Positions 43,569-57,532 of a stretch of DNA of 64,000 bases are shown one piece after another. The first letter of the stretch is position 1. The number at the start of each line of letters is the position of its first letter. The DNA lies in the NCBI GenBank assembly GCA_030041215.1, contig JASHOH010000036.1, forward strand, positions 62,001 to 126,000, given 5' to 3'. The DNA is from Candidatus Sulfotelmatobacter sp. Lineage in GTDB: Bacteria > Acidobacteriota > Terriglobia > Terriglobales > Acidobacteriaceae. The translations under genes and the position numbers were made by a program. The notes beneath the pieces were generated by a model that searched no databases, was not told where the DNA came from, and saw only the letters and a program-made list of their open reading frames with translations.

Positions 43569-43825
43569 GAGGAAATTGTATCTGCGACACTTCTCCGCCT
43601 ACTTCCCGGCGTTTCGGAGCCTGCCCTGAGAGAGCGAAAGCGACCGAACGGGTGAACTTTGCGTGTTAAGATTTTGAATTGATCCGTTCCTGGGAGTCCA
43701 GCCCCGGGCCTTCACAGGTCGCCGAAAGTTACAAACCGCTTAGCCCCTCGGGTATTGCCAAATCCTACAGCCGAATTACTACCGTAACTTGCCGCTCCTT
43801 ACTGGTGTACCTACGATGGCCCCAT

Positions 43826-45637
43826 ATGGGTTATCAAGCGCTCTTATTCTGCCCAGATGAAAAGACTTCCCGCTCGGTAACACAGGTTCTCAGCGAGTTG
43901 GATTTCAGTGTTATTCCCTGCACTGAACCCTTTGCCGCCGTTAAGAAAATGATGGCCGAGCGTTTCGATGCGGTTGTGGTGGATTGCGACAACGAGCAGA
44001 ATGGCACTTTGCTTTTTAAGAGCGCGCGCAATACCGCGCACAACCAGTCATCGCTCGCCGTTGCCGTGGTCGAAGGACAGGCTGGAGTGGCAAAAGCCTT
44101 TCGCATTGGAGCGAACCTTGTCCTGACCAAGCCCATCAACGTCGAGCAAGCCAAAGGTACGCTGCGAGTTGCCCGCGGGCTGCTGCGCAAGAATGAAGCC
44201 ACAAAATCTGCCACGTCAGGCGGAAACGCAGCCAAACCTGCAGCCGCGTCGACCCCGAGATCCGCACCCGGGGCTGCAACTCCAGCTCAAGGTCTGAAAC
44301 CGGCATCGCCGATTGCGCCTGCGGTTGCGGCAGCAAGCATGGCGAGTCCAGCGGCGAAAGCACCGAAAAATTTCTCCGCAAGTGACACCAAATTCGTAAG
44401 CGCAGAAGCGGATGAACCCGAAATCGAATTGCTCGAGTCGGACGAAGAACCAGGGGTGTCGCCCACAACCGCGCCGAAGACCTCTATTTCAGCTGTTTCA
44501 GTAGCCTCGCCTGTGCCCGCGAAACCAGCGGTTGCCGCGGGAATGAGCCGCACAGGATCTGCCTCGGCCGCCTCCAGCGCGGCGAGCGCGCCGGCGCCGG
44601 CGCGCGATTCGAAGGCTCCAGTTGAGACCGACGCTGCGAGTGAGCCCCGCGCGATTGTTCAAACCTCGGCATCTGCCCCATTGCCCGCACCTACATTCAC
44701 TTTCGGCGGAGCAGTTGACAGCGGGACTGAAGCCGGCAAGAGCGGAAGCAAGAAAGTGCTTCTGGCAGTAGCTGCAGTGCTGCTGGTCGCAGTCGGTGGC
44801 TATGCTGCCTGGATGAAGTTCGGAACGTCGAGCAGCGACACACCGCATTCGGTTGCTGCGCAACCTGCCAAAATTCTGGCGCCAGCACCTGCAGCCGCCG
44901 CGGCGCCTGTAAGCGCCGCAGCTCCTGCGGCTGCGAATGCTGTTCCATCCCCTTCGCCCGTGGACACAAGCGCGGCTTCGACGGCCGAGGAACCTGCAGA
45001 GAAACCATCGCAGGAAGCTGCGAGCAGACCATCAGAGGAAGCTGCCGGCAAACCATCCTTGGCAGAGACGCCGGCGGCAACTTCCACGAGCGCGCCCGCG
45101 CACGGCGCAAAGCCGAGTGCGAGCCGTCAGAGCACCAAGCCATCGGCCGCGACTCCGGCTGAGAGCAAGACAGTGGCGAAGGCCGAACCTCAACCGCTCG
45201 TGATCAAGGGTGGAACAGCGCCTGCGCGAAAACCGGCGAGTCCTGACGCACCAGCGCCGAGCCTGGATGGCATTGATGCAACGGGCAGCGCGATGCCGAT
45301 GAATAGCCTGATCGCCGGCGGAAGCGAGGCTCCTGCTCCTGTGCTGCAAACGTTGAGCGTTTCCCAGGGCGTTTCGCAGGGACTGTTGATCAAGAGGATC
45401 AATCCTGTGTATCCGTCGAACGCGTTGCGCCTGCGCGTGGAAGGAACAGTCCAGCTTCTGGCCACGGTTTCTGACAAGGGCGATGTCAGTGCGGTCAAAG
45501 TACTTAACGGCGACAGCCTGCTCGTGCCAGCCGCAACTGAGGCCGTCAAGCAGTGGAAGTACAAACCTTACCTTCTGAACGGATCTCCCGTAGAAATTCA
45601 GACCGAGATCACAGTGAAGTTCAAGCTGCCCCAGTAA
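43826..45637 (+). CDS. Receiver-like domain fused to TonB C-terminal domain
   Basis: 603 residues from ATG 43826. Residues 1-125 resemble a CheY-like receiver (ALLFCPDEKTSRSVTQVLSEL; VVVDCDNEQNG with a possible phospho-Asp; LVLTKPIN with the conserved Lys). An Ala/Pro-rich stretch leads to one membrane helix (KVLLAVAAVLLVAVGGYAAW, about 310-330). A long Ala/Pro/Ser periplasmic linker ends in a TonB-type domain (INPVYPSNALRLRVEGTVQL, VPAATEAVKQWKYKPYLLNG). TonB domains energise outer-membrane transporters. No exbB/exbD is nearby. Confidence 0.8.
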   Translation: MGYQALLFCPDEKTSRSVTQVLSELDFSVIPCTEPFAAVKKMMAERFDAVVVDCDNEQNGTLLFKSARNTAHNQSSLAVAVVEGQAGVAKAFRIGANLVLTKPINVEQAKGTLRVARGLLRKNEATKSATSGGNAAKPAAASTPRSAPGAATPAQGLKPASPIAPAVAAASMASPAAKAPKNFSASDTKFVSAEADEPEIELLESDEEPGVSPTTAPKTSISAVSVASPVPAKPAVAAGMSRTGSASAASSAASAPAPARDSKAPVETDAASEPRAIVQTSASAPLPAPTFTFGGAVDSGTEAGKSGSKKVLLAVAAVLLVAVGGYAAWMKFGTSSSDTPHSVAAQPAKILAPAPAAAAAPVSAAAPAAANAVPSPSPVDTSAASTAEEPAEKPSQEAASRPSEEAAGKPSLAETPAATSTSAPAHGAKPSASRQSTKPSAATPAESKTVAKAEPQPLVIKGGTAPARKPASPDAPAPSLDGIDATGSAMPMNSLIAGGSEAPAPVLQTLSVSQGVSQGLLIKRINPVYPSNALRLRVEGTVQLLATVSDKGDVSAVKVLNGDSLLVPAATEAVKQWKYKPYLLNGSPVEIQTEITVKFKLPQ

Positions 45638-45831: not shown

Positions 45832-48294
45832 CTACTCGCGTTGCATGACTTCGTCGATGACGACTTTGCCGCCTCTGTCGACGCTGATGACTTTGTGGAT
45901 GGGCGCGTAGCCGGTCATGGTGACGTCGACGATGTAGTTGCCGGGATCGAGCAGCACGTCCACCGGCGAATCTTTCTCGAGCATGTGCTGGTTCACCGCG
46001 ACCTGAGCGCCTTTGGGCTGGGTGTGGACGCTGAGCGTGCCCATGCCCTGCGCTTCCTTGCCGCCAAACAGCTTTTTCATTTTGCCGGCAGTGCGCATGT
46101 CATCGACATTGCCGAGCGGGCGCAGGCTGGGAGTGAAGCTGACCGTCTGGCCGAGAGTGAACTGGGCGTTGGTGGTTTCGTCGATGTAGCCGGACTTGCG
46201 GACCAGCACGAGGTGCGTCCCGGCGGTGGTCACGGGAACTTGCGCGGGCGTGAGCTTGCCGGTGTCCTTGCCATCAATGTAAACGTTCGCTCCGGCCGGA
46301 CTGCTTGAGACCGCGAGCATGGCGGCCAGCTGGTTCAGACGGCTGGAAACGAATGCCCGGCTGCCGGAAGCGACCTTAACGCTGCGCGAGTCGGCGATGT
46401 AACCGGATTTGCTTATGACGATCGAATGCTGACCAGCGACTACGCCCGACAGAGTTACAGGCGTAATCCATGAGGGATCAGTTCTGCCGTCGATCTGGAT
46501 CTGCGCGCCTGGAGGATTGGAATCGATGGCCAACTCTCCCGGGACGATTGTGGGAGCTGCCGGAGCGGATTTCTTTCTGGAATTTCTTCCGCGCGCGGCC
46601 GGTGCAGCGGCGCGAGTTTCGGGTTCTGCATTGGCGGTTGGAGTGGGAGGCTCGAACGGTGTGGCTGAAGGCGCTGGCTCAGTAGGCTGCGGGCTGGCAG
46701 CGGGTTGAGCCGGGGCAGGTTGAGGCTGCTCGACCGGGGTGGCGGCAACCGGGCGAGGGGAGTCTCCCTCAGAATTCAGACTGTTTATGTGCATCATCAG
46801 GCCGATGGCAATGGCCAGAATTACAACTGCGGCCCCGGCGATGGAATAAACAACGAGGCGGGGCGGAACGTTCTTGATTTCCTTGACCGCTTTTTCGGCG
46901 ATCTCACGCGGCTGAACCTTCGGCCTTTCGGGCTGCTCCCCATGGAAAATTGTTGGAGCGGCCGGCACGTGAGGTGCAGGCTGGTGGAACTCTTGTGCCG
47001 GCGGCGGAGCCGACTCGATGTAGACCTCTTTCAGCGGAGGCAGTTCCGTCATGTCGGAAAAGCTGACGCCGGAGCGGGTGGAAGGACCGTCTTCGGCCAT
47101 CATGGGATCGACGGTGATTTTGGGGGCCGGCGCGGCGGCTTGCGGAGCTTCGAAAGCGGGCTCATCGAGCACCGGCGCAGACATCGATGGAGCCGGTGGA
47201 GCGACGGGTCGTTGCGGCCTAACCGGCGCTGGTGGTGCCACGCGCGGCGTCGTGGATGCAGATGCAGCGGCGGCAGCGGCCTTGCCCTGCGCTGAAATTG
47301 GTTTTGGCTGAGCCGGCTGGGGAGCAACTGGCGCGGCAGGGCCCCTGGTGCCAACGGTGGGTCTGGTGGCAGCGGTAGCTTTCGGTGCAGCGGCAGCGCC
47401 GATGAATTTCGCCTGATTTGCCGCCTTCACCGAATCCGGAACCATGGTCCCCGTTGGGGCTGCCACTTTGGCTGCGGCAGGTTTTGTTTCCTTACATTTT
47501 TCGAGATCGTCAAGCAGCTCGCGGCCGCTCTGATAACGTTCGTTCGGATCTTTCGACAGCGCTTTCAAGATCAGCTGGTTGAGCGCGGGATGAATTTTTG
47601 GATTCAGCTCAATGGGCGGCACGGGATCGTTCTGGGCGATGATCTGGCGTAGAGTTTCGGAATCTTCGCTGTCGAACGGTTTCTGGTCAGCGACCATCTC
47701 GTAGAACATCGCGCCGACGCTGAAGAGATTGGAGCGACCATCGATCTGCTCGCCGCGAATCTGCTCAGGAGACATGTAGTAGAGAATCGAGGGAGTGCCG
47801 GGAATCTGCGGCATGAATCTTCCGGCGCTCGAGATGCCGAAGCCGAGAACTCTGACGCCGCCATCCCATCCGCACATGATTTTGGCGGGCTCGAGGCTAT
47901 GGTGGAAAACTTTGTTGGAGTGAGCGTAATCGAGGCCGCTCGAAATCTGGCGGCCGATATCGAGCAGGTCCCAGATGGAAAAGCCTTCTTTGCGGGCAAG
48001 CATGGTAGCGATGCTGTTGCCCTGGATGTACTCCATCGCGGCGCAGAATTGGCCATCGAATTCGCCCGCGCCATAGATGGGGGGAACATTGGGGTGGCGG
48101 AGAACTTTGCTGGCCTCGGCTTCTGCGACGAGGGAGTTTTGCAGTTCGGCAGCGTGTGGGCCGAACACGGAGAGTTGAATCGCCTTCAAGGCGACGGTCT
48201 GGCCGGTTTGGGGATCGGTCGCCTTATAAACCGCGCCGGTAGCGGACTTTGCCAGTTCGCTCAGGATTTCGAAGTGGCCGATCTTGCTGGACAT
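45832..48294 (-). CDS. Membrane pseudokinase with PEGA domains
   Basis: 820 residues from ATG 48294. Residues 1-265 have a PknB-like kinase fold: VALK with Lys37, YMSPEQIRGEQIDGRSNLFSVG and the C-lobe. However, the glycine loop is AKSATG, the HRD motif is HHS (131-133), the catalytic-loop Asn is Lys138 and DFG is GFG (151-153). A Pro/Ala linker, one membrane helix (VVYSIAGAAVVILAIAIGLM, about 480-500) and three tandem PEGA-like beta repeats (about 590-820: GELAIDSNPPGAQIQIDG, MLAVSSSPAGANVYIDGKDTG, LSVHTQPKGAQVAVNQH) follow. It probably binds, not phosphorylates, partners and recognises the envelope outside. Confidence 0.88.
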   Translation of the reverse strand: MSSKIGHFEILSELAKSATGAVYKATDPQTGQTVALKAIQLSVFGPHAAELQNSLVAEAEASKVLRHPNVPPIYGAGEFDGQFCAAMEYIQGNSIATMLARKEGFSIWDLLDIGRQISSGLDYAHSNKVFHHSLEPAKIMCGWDGGVRVLGFGISSAGRFMPQIPGTPSILYYMSPEQIRGEQIDGRSNLFSVGAMFYEMVADQKPFDSEDSETLRQIIAQNDPVPPIELNPKIHPALNQLILKALSKDPNERYQSGRELLDDLEKCKETKPAAAKVAAPTGTMVPDSVKAANQAKFIGAAAAPKATAATRPTVGTRGPAAPVAPQPAQPKPISAQGKAAAAAASASTTPRVAPPAPVRPQRPVAPPAPSMSAPVLDEPAFEAPQAAAPAPKITVDPMMAEDGPSTRSGVSFSDMTELPPLKEVYIESAPPPAQEFHQPAPHVPAAPTIFHGEQPERPKVQPREIAEKAVKEIKNVPPRLVVYSIAGAAVVILAIAIGLMMHINSLNSEGDSPRPVAATPVEQPQPAPAQPAASPQPTEPAPSATPFEPPTPTANAEPETRAAAPAARGRNSRKKSAPAAPTIVPGELAIDSNPPGAQIQIDGRTDPSWITPVTLSGVVAGQHSIVISKSGYIADSRSVKVASGSRAFVSSRLNQLAAMLAVSSSPAGANVYIDGKDTGKLTPAQVPVTTAGTHLVLVRKSGYIDETTNAQFTLGQTVSFTPSLRPLGNVDDMRTAGKMKKLFGGKEAQGMGTLSVHTQPKGAQVAVNQHMLEKDSPVDVLLDPGNYIVDVTMTGYAPIHKVISVDRGGKVVIDEVMQRE

Positions 48295-48315: not shown

Positions 48316-48787
48316 AGACAGGCGGAGCAGTTCTCACGCGAGAGCTGGCATCCGTCAAAACCCAGGGCGAAAGATGTGGGTAGGATAACGTTCCCGCAAT
48401 TGATCTTCGAGTTACGAAAGTACTGAAAAATCAGGGGTTCGGAATGAGGACCGAGAATAGGAATAGGCTGTTAGTTGGGGGCGCGGGTGGGGCACTCTCA
48501 GTGCTCCCTTCCCGCTTTCCCGGGCAGGGCTGCCCGCGCCACACGGTATACACGATTTTTCTGATGACGTGCGTGACATGTGTCATGGGGCTTGTGTGAC
48601 GATCTCCACTGGATAAATTTTGCGTCAGCAATGAAGATCAGTCTGGCGTGGCGAAGGCTCATGAATAGAGCATTAAAGCCCGGTTAACAGTGGTGAAACG
48701 CGGTTGTGGAGGGCAAGTGGTTCATTTATTCTGGTTGGTCCGAAAAAAGCTCGCCCTGTCTGTTTCCGATCACTCCTGGGTGGTTTC
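48316..48787. other. Intergenic region upstream of the ABC operon
   Basis: No gene over 470 bases. It includes a repeat at 48477-48545 (GGGGCACT-CTC-AGTGCTCCC hairpin and CCCGGGCAGGGCTGCCCG) and a TGACA-TG-TGTCA inverted repeat at 48574-48585. It must hold the divergent promoters for the pseudokinase and the export operon. Confidence 0.5.
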
Positions 48788-49936
48788 ATGACGTTGACCC
48801 GATTCGTAACCAAGAATGCCTTCCGCAACAAGCGACGGAGCATACTGACGGTGCTGAGCATCGCCTTTTCTTTGCTGCTGCTGACGCTGATGATGACCAT
48901 CTGGCGGGCGTTTTATCTCGACCAGGGCAGCGCGGAATCGAACGAGCGGCTGGTGGTGCGGCACCGGGTTTCATTGACTTTCTTGCTGCCTGGCTTCTAC
49001 CGGGAAAAGATCCGTGCCGTGCCGGGCGTGGTGGCTGTGGTGCCGGTGACCTGGTTCAACGGAATCTATAAAGATCAGAAGCCGGAGAATTTTTTTGCCC
49101 GCTTCGGCACCGACCCGGAGGAGTTTTTCAAGGTATTCCGCGACATTGAACTGCCTGATGATGAAATCAAGGCGTGGCAGCGCGACCGGCAGGGCGTAAT
49201 TGTGGATGACACGCTAGCGGCGAAATACGGGTGGAAGCTCGGAGACCGGATTGTGATTCAGGGAGATGTGTATCCGGTTGATCTCGAGCTGTATGTGCGC
49301 GGGATTTTTCACTCGGTGCCTGACAACAAGTCGGTCTATTTCAATACTAAGTATGTGGAAGAGGCGGTTTCGTGGTTCAAAGGACAGGCTGGAACGTTCA
49401 GCATTTTGGTTGCATCGCCGCAGGACGTGAGCCGGGTAGCGAGTGCCATCGATGATATGTTCCGCAACTCGCCGCAGCCGACGAAGGCGGAGAGCGAGAA
49501 GGCTTTCGGGCTGGAATTTGTGGCCATGATGGGCAATGTCAAGGCGTTCATTCTGGTGATTTGCGGCGCGGTGGTGTTCGCGACTTTGCTGGTTTCGGCG
49601 AACACGATGGCCATGTCGATCCGCGAGCGGACGCGAGAAGTGGCCGTGCTGAAGACTTTGGGATTTACGCGGCAGAACGTTTTGGGGTTGTTCGTGAGCG
49701 AGGCGATCGCACTGTCGCTGGCGGGGGGGTTGATCGGTTTTGGAATGGGATGGGCTATGGTTTACGCGCTTACCCATTCGCCGCAGATCTTCAGCTTCTT
49801 TCCGATGCGGGTGACTGTGGGAATTTGGGTGACGGCGATGGTAACGTCAGGTTTGGTGGGATTTTTGAGCTCGGCCTTACCTTCGTATCACGCTTCGCAA
49901 GTAAATATCGTGGATGGTTTGCGCTACATCGGTTGA
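48788..49936 (+). CDS. ABC transporter permease, MacB/FtsX type (1)
   Basis: 382 residues from ATG 48788. It has the four-helix MacB layout: one helix near the N-terminus (SILTVLSIAFSLLLLTLMMTIW), a periplasmic domain of about 200 residues, and three C-terminal helices (VKAFILVICGAVVFATLLVSANTMAM and onward). The SIRERTREVAVLKTLGFTRQNVL coupling loop is clear. It is closely similar throughout to the next gene, so the two are duplicates that may form a heterodimer. First gene of a five-gene operon. Confidence 0.9.
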   Translation: MTLTRFVTKNAFRNKRRSILTVLSIAFSLLLLTLMMTIWRAFYLDQGSAESNERLVVRHRVSLTFLLPGFYREKIRAVPGVVAVVPVTWFNGIYKDQKPENFFARFGTDPEEFFKVFRDIELPDDEIKAWQRDRQGVIVDDTLAAKYGWKLGDRIVIQGDVYPVDLELYVRGIFHSVPDNKSVYFNTKYVEEAVSWFKGQAGTFSILVASPQDVSRVASAIDDMFRNSPQPTKAESEKAFGLEFVAMMGNVKAFILVICGAVVFATLLVSANTMAMSIRERTREVAVLKTLGFTRQNVLGLFVSEAIALSLAGGLIGFGMGWAMVYALTHSPQIFSFFPMRVTVGIWVTAMVTSGLVGFLSSALPSYHASQVNIVDGLRYIG

Positions 49937-49954
49937 TTCACGACGGGTTGATTT

Positions 49955-51106
49955 ATGACGCTAGGCAGTTTCATCGTGCGCAGTACTTTTCGCAATAAGC
50001 GGCGCAGCTTGCTGACGATGTTGAGCATCAGCTTTTCACTGCTGCTACTGACCATGATGATTTGCATCTGGCGGGCGTTTTATATCGATCAGGTGGCGCC
50101 GGAAGCGAGCCGGCGGCTGATTATCCGCGACAAGGTTTCGCTGGCATTCTTTTTGCCGTCGTACTATCGCGAGAAGATTCGTGCGGTCCCGGGAGTGACG
50201 GCTGTAGTGCCGATGACATGGTTTGAGGGCAAGTACATCGATGACCGTCCTGAGCACTTTTTCGCGCGGCTGGCGACCGATCCGGATGAGTATTTGAAAG
50301 TGGCGTCGGACAAGATCACTCCGCCCGAGCAGGTGAAAGCGTGGCAGCAGGACCGCGCGGGGGCGCTGGTAGATCAGACGCTTGTAGACAAGTATGGATG
50401 GAAAATCGGCGACCGGATTCATATTCAGGGGACGATTTTCCCGGCTGATCTTGATCTGACGATTCGCGCGATTTATCACCGTGATCCGCCGCAGAATGCG
50501 CTGTATTTTCATACCAAGTATCTGGAAGAGTCGGTGAGCTGGTTCAAAGGGCAGGCCGGGTGGTTTGGCGCGCAGGTGGATTCGCCCGATCATGTGGCGC
50601 AGGCCTCGAAGATCATCGACGACATGTTTCGCAATTCACCTCTGCCCACGAAAACTGAAAGCGAGAAAGCGTTTCAGCTTGGATTTGTGGCGTCTTTGGG
50701 GAATGTGAAGGCGTTTATTTTGGGGATTTGCGGCGCGGTGGCGTTCGCCATCATGCTGGTTTCGGCGAACACGATGGCGATGTCGGTGCGCAGCCGGACG
50801 CGAGAAGTGGCGGTGCTGAAAACTCTGGGATTCACTCAGGGCAGGGTGCTCTCGATCTTCATCAGTGAGTCGGTGGCGCTGGCGGTGGCCGGGGGAGTGA
50901 TTGGGATCGTTGTGGCGATGCCGTTGATCGCGGCGATGACGCACCGGTTTATTGGGCTGGGGATCCCGTTTGATATGAGGGTGAATCCTCCTACTGCGGC
51001 TTTGTCGCTTTTCGTCGCACTGGCGTTGGGAATTGTAAGCGGGTATTTGCCGGCGTATCGGGCATCGCGGATGAATATCGTAGAGGGGCTGAGGCATATT
51101 GGGTGA
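49955..51106 (+). CDS. ABC transporter permease, MacB/FtsX type (2)
   Basis: A 383-residue paralogue of the previous permease with the same start (FIVRSTFRNKRRSLLTMLSI), the same periplasmic blocks (REKIRAVPGVTAVVPMTWFEG, SVSWFKGQAGWFGAQVDSP) and the same coupling loop (SRTREVAVLKTLGFTQGRVL). The two differ most in the last two helices. It starts 18 bases after the first permease stop. The pair is likely a recent tandem duplication under separate function. Confidence 0.9.
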   Translation: MTLGSFIVRSTFRNKRRSLLTMLSISFSLLLLTMMICIWRAFYIDQVAPEASRRLIIRDKVSLAFFLPSYYREKIRAVPGVTAVVPMTWFEGKYIDDRPEHFFARLATDPDEYLKVASDKITPPEQVKAWQQDRAGALVDQTLVDKYGWKIGDRIHIQGTIFPADLDLTIRAIYHRDPPQNALYFHTKYLEESVSWFKGQAGWFGAQVDSPDHVAQASKIIDDMFRNSPLPTKTESEKAFQLGFVASLGNVKAFILGICGAVAFAIMLVSANTMAMSVRSRTREVAVLKTLGFTQGRVLSIFISESVALAVAGGVIGIVVAMPLIAAMTHRFIGLGIPFDMRVNPPTAALSLFVALALGIVSGYLPAYRASRMNIVEGLRHIG

Positions 51107-51149
51107 GGGAGTCTGGGCCGTCGACTGACAGAACAAAGTAGATGACTTT

Positions 51150-52340
51150 ATGGCGATACCGATCAGTTATAACGTGCGGAATCTGAAGTTGCGCAAGGGG
51201 CTGACGGTCATGACGGCGCTCGGGATCGCGCTGACGGTGACCACGGCAATTTTTCTGATGGCGCTGCTGGCGGGATTGGATCGGGCTTTCGTTTCCAGCG
51301 GCAGCCGGAAGAATGTGCTCGTGCTGCGTAAGGGATCAGAAGCGGAATTGTCTGGTGGCTTCGATGCGGAATTGTTTCCCACTCTCAAGGTGCTGCCGGG
51401 CATCGCCAAAGATAGTCATGGCGAGCCGATGGCTTCGGGCGAATGGGTGGTTGTCATTGTTCTGCCTCGCAAGGATGGCACCGGTGAGGTTAACGTAACG
51501 GTGCGCGGCATGATGCCCGACGGCCTGGAAATGCGGCAATTGGCCGACGAACCAGGCGGCAAGCCGCTGGTAAAACTGATCGATGGCCGCTGGTTCCAGA
51601 CGGGGCAGCGCGAGGTGGTGGTGAGCAAGTCGATACGCTCGCGCTTTGCTCACGCGAATATTGGCGACACGATGGAGTTCGGCAAGGGTGCATGGAAGGT
51701 GGTGGGTGTGTTCGACGCCGGAGGATCGGCGTATGAGTCGGAAATCTGGGGCGACGTGAACCAGATGGCGTCGGATTTTGACCGGCAGGGCGGGTTTTCA
51801 TCGGCGTATTTACGGGCGACGGATGCGATTGCGGCGGACGCTTTGAAGAATCGAGTGAGCGATGACCAGCGCCTGAAGCTGGAGGGGGTGCTAGAGACCG
51901 ATTACTACGCGAAGCAGACAAGTTCGGGAACTCCGATCAAGATTATTGGCATTGTGGTCGCGGTGATCATGGCGATCGGATCGAGCTTCGCGGCGATGAA
52001 CACGATGTATGCAGCGGTGGCGTATCGCGGGCGAGAAATTGCCACACTGCGCGTGCTGGGATTTTCGCGGCCGGCGATTTTGACGTCGTTTGTGCTGGAG
52101 TCGCTGATGCTGGCGCTGTTGGGAGCGGCTGTCGGAATTCTCCTGATGCTTCCTTTTAACGGAATGCAGACGGGAACGTCGAATGCGGTGACGTTCAGCG
52201 AGGTAGTGTTTAGTTTGCAAATTACGCCTCTGGTGGCGGCGTACGCGGTGGCCTTCGCGTTGATTATGGGGCTGGCGGGTGGGTTTGCGCCAGCATGGCA
52301 CGCGGCAAGGCAGAATATCTTGACGGCGTTGAGGGGGTAG
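51150..52340 (+). CDS. ABC transporter permease, MacB/FtsX type (3)
   Basis: A 396-residue permease of the same architecture but clearly diverged from the two before it: MTALGIALTVTTAIFLMALLAGLDRAFV at the N-terminus, a periplasmic domain with FQTGQREVVVSKSIRSRFAHA, and AVAYRGREIATLRVLGFSRPAIL as coupling loop. It follows permease 2 after 43 bases. Having three half-size permeases for one ATPase is unusual for MacB-like pumps, which use one dimer. Confidence 0.9.
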   Translation: MAIPISYNVRNLKLRKGLTVMTALGIALTVTTAIFLMALLAGLDRAFVSSGSRKNVLVLRKGSEAELSGGFDAELFPTLKVLPGIAKDSHGEPMASGEWVVVIVLPRKDGTGEVNVTVRGMMPDGLEMRQLADEPGGKPLVKLIDGRWFQTGQREVVVSKSIRSRFAHANIGDTMEFGKGAWKVVGVFDAGGSAYESEIWGDVNQMASDFDRQGGFSSAYLRATDAIAADALKNRVSDDQRLKLEGVLETDYYAKQTSSGTPIKIIGIVVAVIMAIGSSFAAMNTMYAAVAYRGREIATLRVLGFSRPAILTSFVLESLMLALLGAAVGILLMLPFNGMQTGTSNAVTFSEVVFSLQITPLVAAYAVAFALIMGLAGGFAPAWHAARQNILTALRG

Positions 52341-52418
52341 GTCAGTAACAGCGAAACCCAAGGTCCCCCATTCGACGCCCTCCCTGCGGTCGGTTGCTCA
52401 GGGCAGGCTCTCGACCTC

Positions 52419-52445
52419 GAAATCATCCATTTCGTGGATGATTTC
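52419..52445 (+). repeat. Perfect hairpin before the adaptor gene
   Basis: GAAATCATCCA and TGGATGATTTC form an 11-base perfect stem around TTTCG, in a patch with CAGGGCAGGCTCTCGACCTC and CTCGGGATGACAG that resembles an interspersed repeat. It lies inside the export operon, 42 bases before the adaptor start, so it may attenuate downstream expression. Confidence 0.6.
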
Positions 52446-52486
52446 TACGCTCGGGATGACAGTTTAATTGTTAGCAAACAATTTTT

Positions 52487-53854
52487 ATGCCGATTGATGC
52501 AAAACACGAAGAGCTGAGAGGCCTGAAGATCGACCGTTCGGCGCGGGGGACAGGCGATGGAGAGCCGCCGGCGTGGGCGCGGCGCTACATTGTCATCGGC
52601 ATTGCGGTGGTTGCGGTGCTGAGCCTGTCGGCGCTGGCGTATCGTCTGCTTGCTCCCAGCGTGCCGGAAGTCGAAGTGGTGCGGGCGGCGGCGGAGAGCA
52701 GCGATGTGGGCGGCACGGTGCTTTCGGCGACCGGCTATATTGTGGCGCATCACACCATCAACGTGAACTCCAAGGTCACCGGCCGCGTGGCGTGGATCGG
52801 CGTGGAAAAGGGCGACAAAGTAAAAGAAGGCCAGGTGCTGGTGCGGCTGGAGGACGAGGAATTTCGCGCCGCCTACGAGCAGGCCAAGGGCGCGCTCGAT
52901 AATGCCAAGGCTTATCTGGAAGAGCTTGAGCATGGCTCGCGGCCGGAGGAGATTCAACAGGCCCAGCACAATCTCGAAGAGGCCCGCGCCACTCTCGTTG
53001 ATGACAAGGCCACGCTTGACCGCACCAAAGAACTTTTTTCTGCCGGGGTCGTTTCGCGGCAGTTGCTCGACGACGCCATCGCGAAATTCGATTCCGATCA
53101 GCAGAAAGTTAACTCGCTTGATAAGGCCTACCAACTGATGAAGATTGGCCCGCGGCAGGAAGAGATTGCGCGGGCGCGTGGCGCAGTAGTACAAGCGCAG
53201 GGACAACTGGATTATGCAAAGTCGCAGCTTGATGCAACGCTCATCAAAGCGCCGGTGACGGGAACGATTCTGGATCGAACTGCGGAAAAGGGCGAGTTGA
53301 TTACTGCACAGTTCGCGAGCGCGGCGGCGGGTGGGCCACAGGGATCAGTTGTGTCGCTCGCCGACCTTAACGATATCCAGGTGGAACTCGATATCGCGCA
53401 GGCAGATTTTGCGCGGCTGGGACCGAAACAGAAAGGGATTGTGACCACGGACGCGTATCCTGACCGGAAATACAACGGCGAGATTGCGCAGATTTCTCCT
53501 GAGGCGAACCGGCAGAAAGCTACTGTGCAGGTGAAAGTGCAGGTGTTGAATCCGGATGAGTATTTGCGGCCGGAGATGAATGCGACCGTGAAATTTTTGG
53601 CCGATGAGAAGAAATCGAGCGGGACGCAACCGACAGGGGCATTCGTGCCGTCGTCGGCGCTGAAGGATTTCAGCGGCAAAAAGGTAGTTTTCTTGGCGTT
53701 TGAGGGCAGAGCTCACATGCGAGAGGTGCACGTGCTGAGCCAGCGCAGCGATGGTTTTCTTGTCGATGGATTAGTGGGCGGCGAGAGCGTGATCAGCAAT
53801 GGGCCGCAGGACCTGAAGGACGGGGAAAGAATAAAGATTAAGAGGCAATCATGA
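52487..53854 (+). CDS. Membrane fusion (adaptor) protein, MacA/HlyD type
   Basis: 455 residues: a cytoplasmic lead, one membrane helix ([23 protein letters not shown], about residues 32-54), a lipoyl/barrel-hybrid half ([30 protein letters not shown]), a coiled-coil hairpin of about 110 residues, and the return half ([20 protein letters not shown]). It links the inner-membrane pump to an outer-membrane channel. No TolC-like gene is in the window. The ATG of the ATPase gene overlaps the stop by four bases. Confidence 0.92.
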
Positions 53855-54564
53855 GCACAGCAGTGGAAAACAAGGTCGCGACGGATACCAAAGTTGTTCA
53901 AGCCCGCAGCGTGACAAAAATTTTCAAGCGGGACGCCTTCGAAGTGAAAGCGCTCGACGATGTCTCTATCGATATTGCCACGGGAGAGTTTCTGGCGCTG
54001 ATGGGACCTTCAGGTTCGGGCAAGACGACGCTGCTGAACATGATCGCAGCCATCGACAAGCCCACGTCGGGCGAGCTGCTGGTGCAGGGACAGAATATTT
54101 TTCGCTTCAGCGATTCACAGTCGGCGCACTGGCGCAACGAGCACATCGGATACGTGTTTCAGACGTTCAATCTGATTCCGGTACTGACGGCATTTGAGAA
54201 CGTTGAACTACCATTGTTGTTGACGCATCTGAACGCACAGCAGCGGCGCGATCACGTGATGACGGCGTTGAAGCTGGTGGGGCTGGAGGATCGGGTCAAC
54301 CATCTGCCCAAGCAGCTTTCGGGCGGGCAGGAGCAGCGCGTGGCTATCGCACGGGCGATTGTAAGTGATCCAACACTGGTGCTGGCGGATGAGCCAACTG
54401 GCGACCTCGACAGTCATTCGGCTACCGAGATTTTGGAGATTCTGAAACGGCTAAATGAGGATTTTCATAAGACGATTGTGATGGTGACCCACGATCCGCA
54501 CGCGGCGTCGTATGCGCATGTGATACGGCATTTGGAGAAGGGGATGTTGTTGCCGCTAGAGTAA
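53851..54564 (+). CDS. ABC transporter ATPase, LolD/MacB type
   Basis: A 237-residue ATP-binding subunit with Walker [11 protein letters not shown]-loop [22 protein letters not shown], signature [14 protein letters not shown] (Gln-Glu-Gln in place of the more common Gln-Gln-Gln), Walker [13 protein letters not shown] and switch His in VTHDPHAA. It is typical of export-type MacB/LolD/FtsE ATPases and is translationally coupled to the adaptor gene. It is the only ATPase of the five-gene operon. Confidence 0.95.
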
Positions 54565-55543: not shown

Positions 55544-57532
55544 TTGCGCGTCCTGCTGGTCGGGAACCAGGAAGAGGACTTTTTCCTGATTCGTGAAATT
55601 TTGGAGCGACATCGCAGCGCGGTACTGGCCCAGCTCGACCATGCCGCCTCGCTCGAAGCAGGGAAGGTGATGCTGGAACGCGCCGATTATGGGCTGGTTC
55701 TGTTTGAGCACGAGACTGCCGACACGGCTGCCGTCAGGCTGCTTTCAGAACTTCTGCATGCGCGCGGGGCGATTCCGTTTGTTCTGCTGACCGAGCAGGC
55801 CGACGAAAAAGATGTGGCTGCGATCATCCAGGCGGGCGCCTGGGACTGCATGGGGAGAGCGGAGCTAAACGGCGCCAACCTGATGCGCACGGTGCGCTGC
55901 GCCGTCAGCCTGCATGCGATGCAGCAAAAACAGCAGGCGGCGGAGAACAACCTGCGCACGCTTTCCTGTGCGGTGGAGCATGCGTCGGATGCCGTGTTCG
56001 TGACCGACAGCGATGGAATCATCCAGTATGTGAATCGCGCCTTCGAAAAACTGACCGGGTATTCACAACATGATGTAGTTGGAAAGCCACAACTGATTCT
56101 GAAGGCGGAACAGCCGGTGCCCATGCTGTACCGGGAGCTATGGGAGACAATCCGCGGGGACGTGGGGCACGGCCTGCAGGTCAATCGAAGGAAGAATGGC
56201 CAGATTTACTACGTAGATGAGAGCCTAAGTCCTATATGGGACGCCGAGGGGCACGTTACGCATTTCGTGTGCAACTGTCGCGATCTGACGGAGCGTCTGC
56301 GGATTGAGGCGCAACTGGTGCAGTCGCAAAAGATGGATGCTGTGGGACGGCTGGCAGGCGGTGTGGCGCACGATTTTAATAATCTGCTGACCATCATTAC
56401 CAGCTACTCGGAGCTGGCGCTGGATACGGTGATGCCGGAAACGGCGACGCAGAAGCGGCTGCTGGAGATTCTTTCCGCAGCTCGCAGGGCCACCGAGCTT
56501 ACTCGCCAGTTGCTGGCCTTCAGTCGTCGCCAGCCGCAGGCGTTGCGCGTGGCGGAACTCAACCCTGTGGTCGAGCAGATTATGAAAACGCTGCACCGGC
56601 TGATTGGGGAAGACATTGAGGTTCAGTTCCGGGCTGGGGAAGGTTTGGGCCGAGTGCGGCTGGACCCGGTGCAGGTAGAACAAATCCTGATGAATCTGGC
56701 AGCCAATTCGCGGGACGCCATGCCCCAGGGCGGACGCTTCACGATTGAGACGTCCGATGTGTATCTCGACGAGGCGTACATCGAGAAAAAGAGAGCGATC
56801 ATCCCGATGGGGCGGTACGTGGTGCTGAGCGTCAGCGATACAGGAGCGGGGATTCCCAGCGATGAACTCGAACACATTTTTGAACCGTTCTATACGACAA
56901 AGCCTGCGGGACAGGGAACGGGGCTTGGCTTGGCGACGGTGTATGGGATCGTGAAACAGAATCAAGGCTTCATTTGGGTTTACAGCGAGCAAGGGCTAGG
57001 GACTACTTTCAGGATTTACCTGCCGTGCGTGAAAGAGAGTGTCGCTACCATAGAGGGGCAAGAAGAACGAGCGGAAGATGCGCAAGCGGGGACGGAGACA
57101 GTATTACTAATAGAGAACGAGGAACCACTGCGGCGAGCGGCGGCGGAATTCCTCAGGCTGCGGGGATATACGGTTCTGGAAGCACGGGATGGCGCCGACG
57201 CACTGGCCCTCAGCAAGAAGCATGAGTCGGTCATTCATCTGGCCGTCAGCGATGTAGTAATGCCGCACATGAGCGGAGGCGAATTGGCAAAGGAGCTGGA
57301 AGCGCTGCGACCGGAAACTAAACTTCTGTTCATGTCAGGCTATGCGGGACAGATGATTTCAGATCACAAAGTGATGGATGGCGGGCACAATTTTCTTCAG
57401 AAGCCCTTCACGTTGAAACAACTGGCAGGGAAAATCAGGACGGTTCTCGATCGCAATCGAACCGCAGAGCCGCTGCTGAAGAATACGGAGCCGGCTTCTG
57501 CTATTGCGGCTCGGACGGCGGGATCCGGCTGA
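55544..57532 (+). CDS. Hybrid sensor histidine kinase with degenerate N-terminal receiver
   Basis: 662 residues from a TTG start; no ATG or GTG occurs close upstream in frame. Order: receiver-like domain (1-115), PAS domain (about 140-255, VTDSDGIIQYVNRAFEKLTGYSQ), HisKA with the phospho-His in GGVAHDFNNLL (about 275), ATPase (DTGAGIPSDELEHIFEPFYTTKPAGQGTGLGLATVYGIV) and a C-terminal receiver with Asp in AVSDVVMPHMSG and Lys in FLQKPF. In the N-terminal receiver the acceptor is Glu (VLFEHET) and the Lys is missing. No cognate regulator is adjacent. Confidence 0.9.
   Translation: MRVLLVGNQEEDFFLIREILERHRSAVLAQLDHAASLEAGKVMLERADYGLVLFEHETADTAAVRLLSELLHARGAIPFVLLTEQADEKDVAAIIQAGAWDCMGRAELNGANLMRTVRCAVSLHAMQQKQQAAENNLRTLSCAVEHASDAVFVTDSDGIIQYVNRAFEKLTGYSQHDVVGKPQLILKAEQPVPMLYRELWETIRGDVGHGLQVNRRKNGQIYYVDESLSPIWDAEGHVTHFVCNCRDLTERLRIEAQLVQSQKMDAVGRLAGGVAHDFNNLLTIITSYSELALDTVMPETATQKRLLEILSAARRATELTRQLLAFSRRQPQALRVAELNPVVEQIMKTLHRLIGEDIEVQFRAGEGLGRVRLDPVQVEQILMNLAANSRDAMPQGGRFTIETSDVYLDEAYIEKKRAIIPMGRYVVLSVSDTGAGIPSDELEHIFEPFYTTKPAGQGTGLGLATVYGIVKQNQGFIWVYSEQGLGTTFRIYLPCVKESVATIEGQEERAEDAQAGTETVLLIENEEPLRRAAAEFLRLRGYTVLEARDGADALALSKKHESVIHLAVSDVVMPHMSGGELAKELEALRPETKLLFMSGYAGQMISDHKVMDGGHNFLQKPFTLKQLAGKIRTVLDRNRTAEPLLKNTEPASAIAARTAGSG

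Follow-up and report, generated by a model that had tools for sequence, protein, structure and literature searches.

What does a receptor kinase do once the residues that transfer phosphate are gone, and why would the rest of it be kept? This question is raised by one gene in the 64,000-nucleotide stretch of DNA analysed here, referred to throughout as the window. An earlier note on the window described its product as a membrane protein with a catalytically dead, PknB-like kinase fold coupled to three PEGA repeats, and proposed that it transmits the state of the envelope by binding. To our knowledge, bacterial pseudokinases of known function are few. We consider it probable that the window protein is a single-pass membrane pseudokinase acting without phosphotransfer, as a receptor or scaffold at the envelope whose docking surface has been put to a new use. 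Its kinase half lacks the parts for phosphotransfer, yet related soil bacteria retain it, and the protein would thus probably act by binding other proteins; that envelope state is passed on by binding is plausibly the best reading of the comparisons below.

The gene and its parts are listed in the table. A Shine-Dalgarno-like stretch (GAGGGGG) lies just 5' of the start codon, and a promoter and terminator scan gave nothing exceeding shuffled sequences. In Pfam, residues 11-255 match Pkinase (PF00069; E 4e-34; 118.6 bits against a cut-off of 31.7), and three stretches match PEGA (PF08308; E 1e-38; 131.5 bits against a gathering score of 20.8), as the earlier reading had it. About 210 Ala/Pro-rich residues link the kinase domain to the PEGA part with its hydrophobic segment. 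That segment, the only one in the protein, spans residues 476-508, and its top 19-residue span (480-498) has a hydropathy score of 2.55. Judging from the basic residues that precede it and by comparison with receptor kinases that share this plan, the kinase part would be cytoplasmic and the PEGA part outside. The PknB-like fold also holds up. An AlphaFold2 (AF2) model of residues 1-280, built with alignment A1 (described below), is a bilobal kinase fold (pLDDT 90.9, pTM 0.89), and its best structural matches are Mycobacterium tuberculosis PknB (Z 30.6) and Staphylococcus aureus Stk1 (Z 30.5), with an rmsd of 2.7 to each, over 255 and 264 residues, respectively.

Features of the pseudokinase gene, its product and its neighbours, in window coordinates
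Feature	Coordinates	Strand	Basis
Receiver domain + TonB_C gene, convergent neighbour	43679..45637	+	Kept at many orthologous loci
Pseudokinase-linker-TM-3xPEGA protein, 820 aa	45832..48294	-	ATG at 48294; ORF read and Pfam
PEGA domain 3	45838..46044	-	PF08308, 43.9 bits
PEGA domain 2	46117..46317	-	PF08308, 54.7 bits
PEGA domain 1	46330..46539	-	PF08308, 47.7 bits
Transmembrane helix, about residues 480-500	46795..46857	-	Hydropathy
Kinase-fold domain, residues 1-270, PknB-like, catalytically degraded	47485..48294	-	PF00069, AF2, fold search
aF helix Asp replaced by Asn189 (RSD to RSN189)	47728..47730	-	Direct read and alignments
Degenerate DFG (GFG), residues 151-153	47836..47844	-	Direct read and alignments
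Invariant Trp143, b7-b8 turn	47866..47868	-	Invariant in A1; 43/43 in genus set
Degenerate catalytic loop HHSLEPAK, residues 131-138, replacing HRDxKPxN	47881..47904	-	Direct read and alignments
Lineage-specific near-invariant block, residues 81-116 (b5-hinge-aD-aE)	47947..48054	-	15/31 dead-clade-specific positions
Retained VAIK-type lysine K37 (VALK)	48184..48186	-	Direct read and alignments
Divergent operon: three FtsX/MacB-type permeases, periplasmic adaptor, ABC ATPase	48704..54564	+	Beside many orthologues

Losses in the kinase motifs were read against the consensus of intact PEGA kinases of the same bacterial family. The glycine loop is ELAKSATGAVYK in the window protein and ELGKGAMGVVYK in its intact relatives, the first P-loop glycines being gone. 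The catalytic loop has lost the Arg and Asp of HRD, its Lys has become Glu135 and its Asn Lys138, and the Asp of DFG has become Gly151; both metal-binding residues are lost, along with the catalytic base Asp and the catalytic-loop Lys. This direct read agrees with the earlier note on all four motifs it had called (HHS for HRD, Lys for the catalytic Asn, GFG for DFG and an altered glycine loop) and adds the change of Lys to Glu135, that of the aF Asp to Asn189 and two further losses, of the P+1 GT and of the Ser/Thr in the activation loop, which are invariant in 16 intact rows and absent from most of the dead clade described below. Lys37 of VAIK and Glu58 of aC are retained. In the excerpted text of a 2025 review of bacterial pseudokinases (PMC12599244), a pseudokinase is defined by the absence of at least one of the VAIK Lys, the HRD Asp and the DFG Asp; here, both the HRD Asp and the DFG Asp are missing. 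The prediction that the protein is catalytically dead, its phosphotransfer residues lost together and its fold kept, has good support from sequence and evolution. Weak or metal-free nucleotide binding is possible, given the kept VAIK Lys, aC Glu and hinge.

We scanned genome contigs with the window protein, taking one genome per species across 84,980 species, and found 47 loci by six peptide patterns, among them a hinge pattern (QFCAAMEY). Alignment A1 has 46 rows, consisting of the window and the 45 loci that yielded a usable domain of this kinase type; L051 was left out for want of a kinase match, as was L048, which was read as another, intact kinase because its own gene is fragmented. The named relatives are mainly Candidatus Sulfotelmatobacter and Acidobacteriaceae MAGs. 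Within the genus, orthologues were present in all 25 genomes searched with the whole protein, and 44 of 45 genomes gave a PEGA-region match when the PEGA half of an intact kinase served as the query. For this genus set, 45 stretches were read and 43 were readable, L204 (another kinase in the stretch) and L216 (truncated) being dropped.

Related Acidobacteria keep the same substitutions: E135, K138 and N189 occur in 46/46 rows of A1 and 43/43 of the genus set, S133 in 45/46 and 42/43, and W108 and W143 in 43/43 of the latter. At position 151, A1 has Gly in 35 rows, Ser in 10 and Asp in 1, and the genus set has Gly in 28, Ser in 15 and Asp in none. The ATP lysine, already described as kept in the earlier note, is found in every filled row (K37, 45/45 and 42/42), as is E58 in the genus set (42/42). 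Trp143, the aC Glu and the hinge are conserved in A1, where conservation of the hinge is partly built in by the QFCAAMEY pattern. Because this pattern was among those used in the scan, the counts were redone on loci chosen by whole-protein or PEGA-region search; C84 came down to 40/43 and 17/19, and W108, E135 and K138 were still invariant. Two SLEPxK proteins (so called after the catalytic loop), L046 and L151, have an intact DFG, representing either a mosaic state or a reversion. Since the motif changes are conserved in orthologues, chance is excluded, and the shared losses support the original pseudokinase call.

The retained residues could instead belong to a nucleotide-gated switch, in which metal-free ATP binding changes the shape of the domain without catalysis. 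Conservation of the VAIK Lys, the aC Glu and the hinge fits such a switch, but the glycine loop is degenerate and the Lys that invariably replaces the catalytic-loop Asn puts a positive charge at the metal's place, and we regard this explanation as unlikely. The breadth of conservation also bears on whether the gene is a decaying pseudogene or an assembly error. Broken MAG copies with a frame break or stop do occur (L054, L165 and L166), none of them the window gene; across tens of separately assembled genomes, however, the reading frame stays open and is conserved and syntenic, which refutes this explanation and leaves its probability practically negligible.

Substitution rates were compared for nine close pairs. 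Kinase-domain dN was 0.04-0.16 and dS 0.58-1.30, the values near or above 1 being rough, and dN/dS was about 0.06-0.14. Gene decay is ruled out by this ratio, and sequencing error by the conservation of the changes in tens of assemblies; the residues invariant in 43 genus rows and the low dN/dS together argue against both. Strong purifying selection on the coding sequences holds the fold together with the VAIK Lys and aC Glu. If the kinase fold were a mere passive structural cap or spacer for a PEGA anchor, retention of the linker and PEGA architecture would be expected, as is found, but kinase-domain dN is lower than that of the linker in 9/9 pairs and lower than that of the TM-PEGA part in 8/9, and a block of 36 residues within the domain is nearly invariant, which makes a passive role very unlikely. 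Synonymous differences are present in this block (residues 81-116), so the constraint there acts on the protein, and an overlapping DNA-level element is ruled out as its cause.

To place the window protein among PEGA kinases, we used a PEGA-only query on 80 evenly sampled genomes of the bacterial family of genome G138, which gave 52 matches in 43 genomes. This family would be the window's own, since the match in G195 is the same as that in G085 (contig number, end coordinate and ORF length) and G085 is of the same family. By kinase motif, 21 matches were SLEPxK proteins, 8 were degraded in other ways and 16 were intact, while 7 could be read incompletely or not at all; matches in G138, G140 and G142 were taken from the earlier reads L042, L036 and L024, and those without a full read were L147, L152, L164 and L165 (without a kinase match), L166 and L176 (kinase end only) and L123 (partial).

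A kinase tree of 75 domains, built after the motif columns had been taken out, unites all 47 degraded rows in a single clade (SH-aLRT 100), within which SLEPxK proteins and L158 form a nested clade (SH-aLRT 98); the kinase trees are quick searches with SH-aLRT support only, and L170, L171, L174 and L183 are long branches. The dead clade persists after the four longest rows are dropped. In a tree of the PEGA region, the 16 intact family members split from the rest at 99, and the whole dead set is not recovered as a single clade, because a long outside branch (L092) falls among poorly placed degraded rows. The kinase tree shows the predicted dead proteins to be one clade, split from the intact PEGA kinases of the same bacterial family, and it rules out a recent loss in one species. 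The 8 degraded rows outside SLEPxK have all lost the HRD Asp, retain the catalytic-loop Asn in 8/8 and the DFG Asp in 7/8, and have the VAIK Lys replaced in 5/8, all five with the DFG Asp still present, whereas SLEPxK proteins keep the Lys and lose the metal ligands. From these losses, there seem to have been two routes of decay after a shared first loss. Seven degraded PEGA kinases outside the window's clade (L170, L171, L174, L183, L161, L167 and L168) have different losses.

Dead and intact copies also differ in their coexistence. An intact PEGA kinase was present in 6 of 7 genomes with an early-branching degraded copy outside SLEPxK and L158, and in none of the 21 genomes with a SLEPxK or L158 copy (E 1e-25). 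This count draws on the 43 genomes, leaving out 8 that carry only intact kinases and 7 in which the kinase part could be read incompletely or not at all (G145, G151, G197, G200, G213, G214 and G216, of which G200 has an intact copy); the Fisher P of 2e-5 is nominal, ignores shared ancestry and is no measure of strength. In the window genome, no second kinase-sized ORF with several PEGA domains was found. This pattern points to a dead copy that at first functioned alongside a live one and afterwards by itself, and it may reflect a single event. Separately, a search of the window genome (5.0 Mb) gave 33 matches, almost all of which lie in the kinase domains of other ORFs, many of them 800-1000 aa long, and one genome carries two intact PEGA kinases in tandem (L179, 7175-11251, minus strand).

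The FtsX/MacB-type operon and the receiver-TonB_C gene flank many SLEPxK loci, down to about 45% protein identity. Some loci are without one or both neighbours, and several contigs end before one side is visible; where present, the neighbours are near the pseudokinase gene, neither fused to it nor co-directional. Intact PEGA kinases sit in other genomic neighbourhoods: the intact copies L103 and L104 adjoin neither the operon nor the receiver-TonB_C gene, and the same is true of those identified later. That the intact PEGA kinases are orthologues sharing this locus is ruled out on these grounds. Intact HRD and DFG motifs, which the earlier note had looked to in orthologues as the sign of a mistaken call, were instead found in a separate paralogous clade at other genomic places.

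The receiver of the receiver-TonB_C protein was read at what we take to be the canonical receiver positions (acidic, Asp, Thr/Ser and Lys). The phosphoacceptor Asp and the Lys are kept at 26/26 loci, the first acidic residue is Pro at 25/26 and the usual Thr/Ser position is Val at 26/26; a partly dead receiver may thus stand beside a dead kinase. Farther along the window (55544-57532, plus strand), there is a PAS-hybrid histidine kinase with a receiver, which scores 426.6 bits with the CckA model, below the cut-off of 1000. A relative of it lies near the pseudokinase at L014, L015, L017 and L019, where the FtsX operon is absent.

Which surface might such a protein use? We defined a dead-clade-specific position as one residue at ≥89% in 19 SLEPxK rows and ≤15% in 16 intact rows, in a comparison that also held 8 outer rows and left out L042 (pattern-found), the partial L123 and the matches in G140 and G142. 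Fifteen of 31 such positions fall within the 36 residues 81-116 (hypergeometric P 3e-7, nominal, as columns are not independent), which correspond to b5, the hinge, aD and the start of aE in the AF2 secondary structure; Trp143 is another. Based on secondary-structure position, the block and Trp143 would form a contiguous partner-binding patch. In the excerpted text of PMC4370755, the docking groove of MAP kinases is flanked by the aD-aE linker, aE and the b7-b8 loop, and by this analogy docking would be the best lead to a mechanism. The model of the dead domain also has a helix (156-163) in the activation segment, which in the model of an intact relative has pLDDT <50, from a shallower alignment (16 versus 46 rows); a locked activation segment would fit, with the proviso that the two alignments differ in depth.

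A cleft rebuilt for other chemistry has to be weighed against docking; K37, E58 and the new invariant S133, E135 and K138 would then hold a nucleotide or a different ligand in a new manner. As replacements, E135 and K138 are invariant (46/46 and 43/43), which sets them apart from random losses; K37 and the hinge are retained, and the excerpted review gives precedents for rebuilt clefts in SelO (AMPylation) and SidJ (glutamylation) (PMC12599244). However, neither metal ligand is left, nor is the glycine loop; Gly or Ser occupies position 151 in 45/46 rows, and the strongest new constraint lies in hinge-aD-aE and not in the catalytic loop; other chemistry is distinctly unlikely.

In the docking reading that we prefer, the PEGA domains would act as sensors of the cell envelope or as anchors to it, with the cytoplasmic kinase-fold domain serving as a docking scaffold of fixed shape. 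Partners would likely bind at the newly invariant hinge-aD-aE segment and Trp143, the place by which MAP kinases grip docking peptides. The lineages that branched first may have had their intact PEGA kinase paralogue as the partner. As an intact paralogue is undetected in the window's lineage, the partner there would have to be something else, and the first candidates would be the conserved receiver-TonB_C neighbour and the FtsX-type exporter. A fuller history can be put forward as a tentative possibility. A PEGA receptor kinase would have been duplicated and one copy killed, which was first kept beside the live one; one branch would then have lost the live copy while the dead one gained a MAP kinase-like docking face (EGFSIWDLLDI and Trp143) and a charge-swapped loop (E135/K138), becoming a free-standing, phosphorylation-independent envelope receptor that signals to the receiver-TonB_C protein and the FtsX exporter. 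Judged by sequence, a single bacterial family ranges from receptor kinases that are intact, through copies degraded in part, to a clade that is fully dead and highly conserved. How a receptor kinase becomes a non-catalytic receptor can thus be asked in testable form, through named residues, nearby genes and a specific surface.

Among known systems, the closest kinase and PEGA relatives are the intact PEGA kinases of the same family (e.g., L175, L177 and L188), which share the kinase-linker-TM-PEGA plan and differ in having intact HRDxKPxN and DFG motifs and another genomic neighbourhood. The PASTA kinases PknB and Stk1 share the kinase fold and the layout of an N-terminal cytoplasmic kinase, one transmembrane segment and repeated extracytoplasmic domains; in contrast, the window protein has PEGA in place of PASTA and retains only the VAIK Lys and the aC Glu of the catalytic residues. 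It scores 187.8 bits with the PASTA kinase model NF033483, against a cut-off of 450, and contains no PASTA domain. The likeness to the MAP kinase D-site (aD-aE and b7-b8; PMC4370755, excerpts) is an analogy of place only.

A search of one literature collection returned no paper joining "pseudokinase" with "PEGA domain," nor bSTK with PEGA and kinase, and the three papers there with pseudokinase and Acidobacteria concerned other subjects, judged by their titles. The excerpted 2025 review lists seven bacterial pseudokinase families (ActPs1-3, GLW, CP1, DYD and DLHK), and we found no mention of PEGA or Acidobacteria in that text (PMC12599244). As described there, CP1 has no transmembrane region and a linked COG3899 domain, DLHK keeps the HRD Asp and has no transmembrane region, and GLW has GLW in place of HRD and a bulky residue in place of the VAIK Lys. 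The window protein, with a transmembrane helix, HHS, VALK and only kinase and PEGA domains in Pfam, falls outside all three descriptions. The pseudokinase domain of MviN (ActPs3) is likewise bacterial, envelope linked and part of a membrane protein, and it recruits a partner protein; however, the listed ActPs3 members have VALT in place of the Lys, in a family with an activation-loop deletion, whereas the window protein has VALK, with the Lys in 45/45 rows, and so falls outside that description too (PMC12599244, excerpts). EssB/YukC is also a single-pass membrane pseudokinase serving as a scaffold (same excerpts), but EssB acts in the type VII secretion system, of which we saw no sign among the window neighbours scanned, and its motifs differ. 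The window protein appears to form a new lineage among proteins of a known kind, and this lineage may already be included, without a name, in one of the families of the underlying 42-family classification.
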